Shown here: positions 54,684 to 56,017 of the stretch, piece by piece
How positions within the stretch are numbered: position 1 is the first letter of the stretch
Layout: each line of letters begins with the position of its first letter
Assembly (NCBI RefSeq): GCF_014207985.1
Contig: NZ_JACHMI010000001.1
Location: forward strand, 286,001 to 350,000
From: Nonomuraea rubra
Lineage (GTDB): Bacteria > Actinomycetota > Actinomycetes > Streptosporangiales > Streptosporangiaceae
Direction: 5' to 3'
Length of the DNA: 64,000 nt
The notes under the pieces: generated by a model
The model's database searches: none
Seen by the model: only the letters and a program-made list of their open reading frames with translations
Told to the model about the DNA's origin: nothing
Made by a program: the position numbers and the translations under genes

Positions 54684-54721
54684 GGGCGTCGATCTCCTTG
54701 AACCGAGGCATTTCTACTGGT

Positions 54722-54755
54722 GAGTAACCTTACTCTGAAATGCTACCCGCGGGTA
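54722..54755. promoter_or_regulatory. Two palindromes in the acyl-CoA dehydrogenase promoter
   Basis: GAGTAACCTTACTC (54722-54735) is an inverted repeat GAGTAA/TTACTC with a CC spacer. TACCCGCGGGTA (54744-54755) is a perfect 12-bp palindrome. Both lie 39-72 bp upstream of the dehydrogenase ATG and 30-64 bp upstream of the divergent methyltransferase start. They are plausible operators for fatty-acid-responsive repressors; no regulator gene is adjacent. Confidence 0.6.
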
Positions 54756-54785
54756 ACCCGTCATATGCGTGGCATGCTCATCTCC

Positions 54786-55583
54786 ATGGACGCCGCAGAA
54801 CTCGCCGCCCGGTGGCGGGAGCGCCTGGAATCGTGGGCGATTCCGGACGAGATCCTGGCCAAGGCCCCCGTGGATCCGTGGAGTCACTCGCCGGAGAGGT
54901 TCGGCACCCGTACGGACAGGGCGCTGGCCGAGCCCGACGACGGTCCCACCATGACCCGCCTGTCCGAGGCGCTGCCCGAGAAGGGCACGCTGCTCGACGT
55001 CGGCTCCGGCCCCGGCGCGGCCTCCCTGCCGCTGCACGCGCGCATCGGCCACCTCTACGCGGTCGACACCTCCGCGTCCATGCTTGAAGGGCTCACGGCC
55101 AGGGCGGAGAAGCTGGGGGTGCCTGTCACGGCGGTCGAGGGCCGCTGGCCCGACGTCTCCGACCAGGTGCCGGTGGCCGACGCGGCCGTGGCGGCGCACG
55201 TCGTCTACAACGTGCCCGACCTGGCCGGCTTCCTGCTCGCGCTGGACGCCCGTACGCAGGGGCGGGTGGTCCTGGAGCTGCCGCACCGCCACCCGATGAG
55301 CTGGATGACGCCGCTGTGGCAGCACTTCCACGGTGTCGACCGGCCGGTGCGCCCCATCGCGGAGGACTGCGTGGCGCTGGCGGCGGCGCTCGGCTTCAAC
55401 GTGCAGGTGGAGGAGAGGGAAGCCCCGCTGGAACGTTTCATGTCGCTGGAGGAGCTGGCCGCCAGCGCGGTGCGCAGGGTGTGCCTCGACCCCTCACGGG
55501 CGGACGAGGTGGCGCGGACGGCGGCCGAGCTCGGCATGTGGCCGGTGCCGCGCGACCGGTGGGTCACGATCTGGTGGGAATGA
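54786..55583 (+). CDS. Class I SAM-dependent methyltransferase
   Basis: About 265 residues from ATG 54786 (MDAAELAARWRERLESWAIPDEILAKAP); ATG 54774 and GTG 54720 are also in frame. The SAM-binding motif is LLDVGSGPGAASLPLHARIGHLYAVDTSASML. AAVAAHVVYNVPDLAGFLLAL corresponds to motif II/post-II, and RGRVVLELPHRHPM follows. The acceptor substrate is not evident. It is divergent from the acyl-CoA dehydrogenase, with palindromic sites between them, so they may share a regulator. Confidence 0.85.
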   Translation: MDAAELAARWRERLESWAIPDEILAKAPVDPWSHSPERFGTRTDRALAEPDDGPTMTRLSEALPEKGTLLDVGSGPGAASLPLHARIGHLYAVDTSASMLEGLTARAEKLGVPVTAVEGRWPDVSDQVPVADAAVAAHVVYNVPDLAGFLLALDARTQGRVVLELPHRHPMSWMTPLWQHFHGVDRPVRPIAEDCVALAAALGFNVQVEEREAPLERFMSLEELAASAVRRVCLDPSRADEVARTAAELGMWPVPRDRWVTIWWE

Positions 55584-55625
55584 CCGGTCCATCCGGCACG
55601 TTCACGTAGATGAGCGGTTGAGCTC

Positions 55626-55694
55626 CCGGACGAGACGCGCCGTACCCGGAACGCCAAGACGACGCACTCCAAGTCAGTCTCGTCTCTCAGGGAG
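55626..55694 (+). promoter_or_regulatory. Guanidine-III (ykkC-III) riboswitch upstream of gdx
   Basis: The aptamer spans 55626-55665. CCGGACGAG, then GCGCCGTACCCGG, then a short linker and AAGACG-ACGC closely follow the Thermobifida-type ykkC-III consensus, with both strands of the CCGG helix and the pseudoknot strands; one A-C mismatch is seen in the GCGCCGT/ACGACGC helix. Downstream, GTCTCGTC (55677-55684), just before the AGGGAG ribosome site, is fully complementary to GACGAGAC (55629-55636) in the aptamer, a possible switching helix. Confidence 0.8.
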
Positions 55695-55702
55695 TGCTTC
55701 TC

Positions 55703-56017
55703 ATGGCGTGGATCGTCCTCGTGCTGGCCGGCCTCTTCGAGGTCACCATGGCCCTCTCGCTCAAGCTCAGCAACGGTTTCACGCACCTGTGGTGGACGCT
55801 GTCGTTCCTGGCCACGGCCGTGCTCAGCTTCGGCCTGCTCTCGTACGCGCTCAGAACGCTGGAGGTCGGCACCGCGTACGCCGTCTGGACCGGCGTCGGC
55901 GCGGCCGGCACCGCGCTGCTCGGCATGATCGCCATGGGCGACGAGGTGTCACCGGCGCGGCTCGTCTCCATCGCCCTCATCCTGGCCGGGGTCATCGGGC
56001 TGAAGACACTGGCTTAA
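55703..56017 (+). CDS. gdx: Guanidinium exporter, SMR family (Gdx/SugE-like)
   Basis: 104 residues from ATG 55703 with AGGGAG 8 nt upstream. Four transmembrane helices are visible. The essential Glu13 lies in TM1 (AGLFEVTMALSLKLSNGF), and GTAYAVWTGVGAAGTALLGM and LVSIALILAGVIGLKTL match the SugE/Gdx branch of small multidrug resistance proteins. Gdx dimers exchange guanidinium for protons. The guanidine-III riboswitch directly upstream independently supports guanidinium as the substrate. Confidence 0.9.
   Translation: MAWIVLVLAGLFEVTMALSLKLSNGFTHLWWTLSFLATAVLSFGLLSYALRTLEVGTAYAVWTGVGAAGTALLGMIAMGDEVSPARLVSIALILAGVIGLKTLA

Follow-up and report, generated by a model that had tools for sequence, protein, structure and literature searches.

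Upstream of the exporter gene at 55703 in the window (the whole 64,000-nt stretch of DNA that was analysed) lies a Guanidine-III aptamer whose ligand-binding core is exactly complementary to a spacer octamer that is conserved in the genus of the source organism. On balance, we favor the view that the element is a translational ON riboswitch for an SMR exporter, with an off state in which the octamer pairs with the ligand core and a continuation of this helix hides the ribosome site. The riboswitch class is known, and the conserved element, a likely off-switch, does not make it a new kind of system. The features of the leader and the gene are:

55609–55668 (+): Guanidine-III (ykkC-III) aptamer, RF01763 (51.7 bits, gathering threshold 36, E 8.1e-8)
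55612–55625 (+): 5´ hairpin of the Rfam model, named P0 here, GAGC 55612–15 with GCUC 55622–25 (from sequence)
55622–55627 (+): GCUCCC, candidate outward continuation of the core–spacer helix onto GGGAGU 55690–95 (from the duplex and the leader-to-AUG fold)
55626–55649 (+): pseudoknot helix P1, CCGG 55626–29 with CCGG 55646–49 (identical in 28/28 leaders)
55629–55636 (+): GACGAGAC, 5´ strand of the core–spacer helix, comprising ligand-binding core and linker (from sequence)
55637–55665 (+): P2, GCGCCGU 55637–43 with ACGACGC 55659–65 and a C55640–A55662 mismatch (Rfam alignment)
55664–55670 (+): GCACUCC, 5´ strand of the second ribosome-site helix, of which G55664 and C55665 are also in P2 (window fold z -2.17, p 0.03)
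55677–55684 (+): GUCUCGUC, 3´ strand of the core–spacer helix and best-conserved spacer octamer in the genus (from genus leaders)
55690–55697 (+): ribosome site GGGAG (55690–94), with 55691–97 forming the 3´ strand of the second helix (from sequence)
55703–56017 (+): SMR exporter gene, gdx/sugE-like, 104 aa, ATG start (PF00893; SugE the best NCBIfam model)

The aptamer, the exporter gene and the leaders compared

The original prediction of a Guanidine-III riboswitch was borne out by a covariance search with the Rfam model. The match scores above the gathering threshold, spans the whole model, and is the sole Rfam match at or above gathering threshold in the window. The aptamer motif and its coordinates had been given correctly, but the element was made to start at 55626, whereas the full match begins upstream at 55609; 34 nt separate its end from the ATG. 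A search of the genome returned no further Guanidine-III element and no match to Guanidine-I. Guanidine-III folds as an H-type pseudoknot (PMC5696562), and the P1/P2 pseudoknot can be formed here with four of four pairs in P1 and six of seven in P2, as it can in 28 aligned leaders from the genus. In the same alignment, three of the four P0 pairs are paired at 92.9% and the remaining one at 76.9%. The binding-site bases (two guanines and the ACGA core) are intact, with ACGAG and CCGUACCCGG unaltered in the window. C6 and G17 are named as binding-site bases in the literature (PMC7736828; PMC5696562) and would, by our own count, correspond to C55631 and G55642, with G55632 as the other guanine. 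Judged from its sequence, the RNA at 55609–55668 is a genuine Guanidine-III aptamer, and guanidine binding is predicted.

The product of the downstream gene carries the SMR family domain (PF00893, 91.3 bits vs a cut-off of 23.7). SugE is the best of 21 NCBIfam models at 110.7 bits, which is under the equivalog cut-off of 126, and the closest solved chain is 6wk5, which we take to be Gdx-Clo. Domain, best model and closest chain all agree with the earlier placement of the gene in the Gdx/SugE branch. The protein has Glu13, Met16, Ser42 and Trp62, and guanidinium is probably its substrate. The same genome encodes four more SMR relatives, with 43–50% identity. A methyltransferase gene (54720–55583) lies upstream of the aptamer, and a glyoxalase-like gene (PF18029, 56036–56428, + strand) is found immediately 3´ of the exporter.

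Of 54 genomes from the same genus, 50 have a Guanidine-III match, as do 135/200 genomes sampled from the family and 124/296 sampled from the class. The main analysis used 260 loci, a subset of these matches, of which 256 were parsed (one of them without a start), giving 248 unique leaders from 72 genera; the fold tests covered 247 of them. Script rules and a typed table, not annotation, supplied the start codons, ribosome sites and genus labels. Long leaders of the genus (spacer of at least 30 nt) number 31, 29 of them with a GACGAGA core, and the aligned set holds 28, with L004 left out for its short-type hairpin. The 23 short leaders of the genus comprise 13 gdx leaders and 10 that precede another gene. 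Twenty later loci entered only the comparison of L251 with L261 and the one-by-one look at genus g20 described below.

Guanidine-III elements also occur before other genes. In ten loci of the genus and three of other genera, the gene after the element encodes a metallo-beta-lactamase-fold protein (PF00753 in the one member tested); a rough rule on sequence counts 13 such loci in 4 genera, among them L036, L038, L040, L042, L043, L160, L168, L205, L207 and L208. By a similarly rough rule, a small membrane-like protein of ~85 aa (QIxGA...LEGxWA) follows in 16 loci from 10 genera (among them L041, L134, L142, L146, L147, L150, L153, L158, L164 and L169), and the one member tested had no Pfam match. 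In genus g6, an arginase-family gene (PF00491, one tested) takes this position (L174, L176, L177 and L182).

Complementarity between ligand core and spacer

GACGAGAC at 55629–55636 and GTCTCGTC at 55677–55684 are exact complements that form eight Watson–Crick pairs, at precisely the positions first proposed, and on paper this pairing and the aptamer are mutually exclusive, as had also been predicted. In the window alone, the match does not reach significance over dinucleotide shuffles of the spacer, which is rich in pyrimidines (p = 0.08, or p = 0.053 with the ribosome site included). The complementarity owes its significance to the relatives. In the spacers of the 29 long leaders of the genus with a GACGAGA core, GTCTCGTC is the most conserved octamer, with a mean of 7.03/8 matches and 14 exact copies; 3000 permuted octamers in the same leaders gave a mean of 4.84 and a maximum of 6.34 matches. 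In a MAFFT alignment of the 28 leaders, 89.7% of helix cells are paired vs 25–51% in slid versions. The original prediction had named loss of the downstream segment from related leaders as the finding that would speak against it, and the segment is retained. It had also proposed covariation as a check, and here the outcome was negative: no pair changed on both sides among the 28 aligned leaders, because the 5´ strand is the near-invariant ligand core and hardly varies within the genus.

A spacer complement of at least 6 nt that reaches the core is found in up to 22/31 long leaders of the genus (~11 expected from dinucleotide shuffles) and in up to 21/44 of those from other genera, g20 not counted (~8 expected). 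It is present in at most one of 63 leaders with spacers of 15–29 nt, where the shortness of the spacers leads to an expectation of only 1–2. A second, lower peak of spacer complementarity falls on the 3´ strand of P2 (up to 14 of the 31 long leaders of the genus, ~8 expected). With each genus counted once, among 94 leaders having at least 15 nt before the ribosome site, complementarity between core and spacer exceeds that of shuffles in 20 of 25 genera (p = 5e-5). When core plus ribosome site were set against the spacer, p ≤0.05 was reached in 18/51 long leaders with a GACGAGA[CT] core, in 3/33 with other cores, and in 0/26 short leaders.

A partner-swap test, from which g20 and very long spacers were left out, points in the same direction. 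The 5´ strand pairs better with its own spacer than with foreign ones in 15/20 genera (p = 0.027), and the observed mean was reached in 0/5000 permutations, a figure that does not control for relatedness. A similar tendency is seen in the control with 26 short leaders (12/16 genera, p = 0.096; 149/5000 permutations). Leaders of g20 were inspected one by one. Fifteen of 16 could be parsed, and five of these have a complement of at least 7 nt to core and linker, three of them at p ≤0.02; nine of the 15 have complements of at most 6 nt, with p >0.15. An apparent compensatory change at two linker positions in L251 was dropped, since its congener L261 lacks it.

Proposed occlusion of the ribosome site

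Without ligand, the spacer octamer GUCUCGUC would pair with the ligand-binding core, and the helix would run on outward such that the ribosome site is covered by GCUCCC from the 5´ margin of the aptamer. Binding of guanidine would stabilize the P1/P2 pseudoknot, thereby withdrawing the 5´ strand of the off-helix and setting the ribosome site free. The site may be hidden by the continuation of the core–spacer helix, by the second helix, or by both. Release of the translation start, as originally proposed, would apply to the extension and not to the 8-bp helix itself, which stops five bases before GGGAG. The continuation of GCUCCC onto GGGAGU is reached past G55628–U55685 and a 4-nt bulge, and it does cover the ribosome site. 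Both parts are present in the minimum-energy fold of the leader to the AUG (-37.3 kcal/mol), which also pairs AUGAG 55610–14 with CUCAU 55700–04, including two bases of the start codon. GCUCCC is partly shared with P0 and P1. The conserved CU of CUCCC was considered as evidence for pairing with the ribosome site and set aside; it is also part of the 5´ hairpin and thus gives no independent support.

The off state as first drawn was incomplete in that it missed a competing helix over the ribosome site, GCACUCC 55664–70 with GGAGUGC 55691–97, which is favored once coding sequence is included. With 15 more coding bases it has a pair probability of 0.99, and forcing the core–spacer helix costs ~6 kcal/mol. 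The off state might consist of this second helix alone, in competition with the 3´ strand of P2 and with the octamer in a subsidiary role, a reading we hold to be rather unlikely. In its favor, besides its dominance in folds with coding sequence and the fold score of the window listed above, the stretch from P2 to the AUG, with the ribosome site held fixed, is more stable than shuffles at p ≤0.05 in 63/247 leaders and in 10/33 of the genus (spacers here cut at 25 nt or more), and the score is negative in 51/71 genera (p = 7e-7). By eye, the helix is clearly seen among many relatives with short spacers (GACG..GCUCC with GGAGC.CGUC), as well as in g20 (GCACC with GGUGC). However, the mean paired fraction of ribosome-site bases is no higher than in shuffles (0.53 vs 0.52, 247 leaders), and the partner swap at genus level is not significant (34/61 genera, p = 0.12). 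The helix overlaps P2 by just two bases, and a forced fold indicates that five of its pairs could persist alongside the bound aptamer. Moreover, it leaves the conserved octamer unexplained, and few long leaders of the genus use it, as the whole-leader folds reveal.

In these folds, core–spacer pairing is seen in 23/31 long leaders of the genus (60 shuffles: mean 18.3, maximum 22) and pairing of the ribosome site with P2 or spacer in 3/31 (shuffled mean 4.6). The short leaders of the genus have 2/23 and 15/23, respectively, the latter vs a shuffled mean of 13.6. In long leaders of other genera, core–spacer folds are within the shuffled range (22/44; mean 18.1, maximum 24). Since shuffles account for much of these counts, the octamer carries more weight for the contrast between long and short leaders than the folds do. 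Together, the data from the genus suggest two alternative wirings of aptamer to gene within one genus. The core–spacer helix as off-helix has to be weighed against its lack of covariation, the preference of folds with coding sequence for the second helix, and the modest gain over shuffles.

Modeling of the switch itself was done in a pseudoknot-free framework. Forcing the aptamer in the window raised the unpaired probability of the ribosome site only from 0.00 to 0.12 and that of the start codon from 0.20 to 0.47. Across 247 leaders, the outcome is mixed: the ribosome site opens by >0.1 in 77 and closes by >0.1 in 64, and among the long leaders of the genus 11/31 open and 9/31 close. Minimum-energy folds also showed the 5´ strand of the aptamer paired with the first part of the coding region. 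Synonymous codons are not chosen in favor of this pairing (mean z -0.29, one leader at p ≤0.05 among the 31 long leaders of the genus), and it was rejected.

Both helices could also form together as an off-state pseudoknot, with the octamer in the 20-nt loop of the ribosome-site hairpin locking onto the core. The geometry would allow it: the helices cross, have no bases in common, leave 6-nt linkers on either side of the octamer, and are each stable as separate duplexes (-12.0 and -11.4 kcal/mol). We still consider it very unlikely, as most long leaders of the genus keep the octamer while the second helix appears in few of their folds. If the aptamer acted chiefly on mRNA stability by standing in the way of RNase E, with the downstream complementarities of little effect, the conserved octamer would go unexplained. 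A review gives both a predicted release of the ribosome site and an RNase E effect for Guanidine-III (PMC12186494), but as the main mode of action here the latter seems highly improbable. Pairing of the octamer with the ligand core, continued over the ribosome site, is the reading we retain. The exact bases to mutate are now named, and the mechanism of the wiring is directly testable.

Exporter lineages and relation to known systems

The A–C mismatch in P2 had been called unusual. It turned out to be ordinary: C55640–A55662 is mismatched in 28/28 aligned leaders of the genus, and the feature goes with the exporter lineage. A reading of the mismatch as a mark of a degraded aptamer was rejected. 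Among 215 classifiable SMR-type leaders (38 others, most before other genes, were unclassified), it is found in 98/100 leaders of AG..E..MA exporters with Met16 (97 C–A in 22 genera and one C–C) and in 1/103 of the main Trp16 group, SG..E..WA. Two small exporter groups have it in one of five leaders together. All seven leaders of the g20 exporters (AG..E..WS, Trp16) carry the mismatch, and it is therefore not tied to Met16 alone. One speculative possibility, to which we give a low probability, is that actinobacterial Guanidine-III comprises two old lineages in which riboswitch and exporter travel together, one with paired P2 and Trp16 and the other with C–A and mostly Met16. The long-leader branch of the second would use the core-complementary spacer as its off switch, and aptamer and exporter of this lineage may suit another guanidinyl compound or threshold. 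That riboswitch and exporter lineages divide along the same line offers a lead on substrate tuning that can be tested.

In Gdx proteins, position 16 is a conserved Trp, and in Qac proteins it is Gly or Ala (PMC7695847). The exporter in the window resembles Gdx-Clo in Glu13, Ser42 and Trp62 but differs from both subtypes in Met16 (PMC7695847), and it scores below the NCBIfam cut-off for SugE.

How Guanidine-II and -III act is less firmly established (PMC5696562). In Thermobifida, the ribosome site is 16 nt from the aptamer and the region near it is prone to secondary structure (PMC5696562). A literature search by title found no paper on the present core–spacer expression platform, although the validation paper may discuss such. 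Like other members of RF01763, the element in the window matches the whole model, precedes an SMR gene and has the P1/P2 pseudoknot. It differs in the C–A mismatch in P2, which is common to its lineage, and in its expression platform, for which the present analysis leaves two candidate helices, whereas for Thermobifida only a propensity for structure near the ribosome site is noted (PMC5696562).
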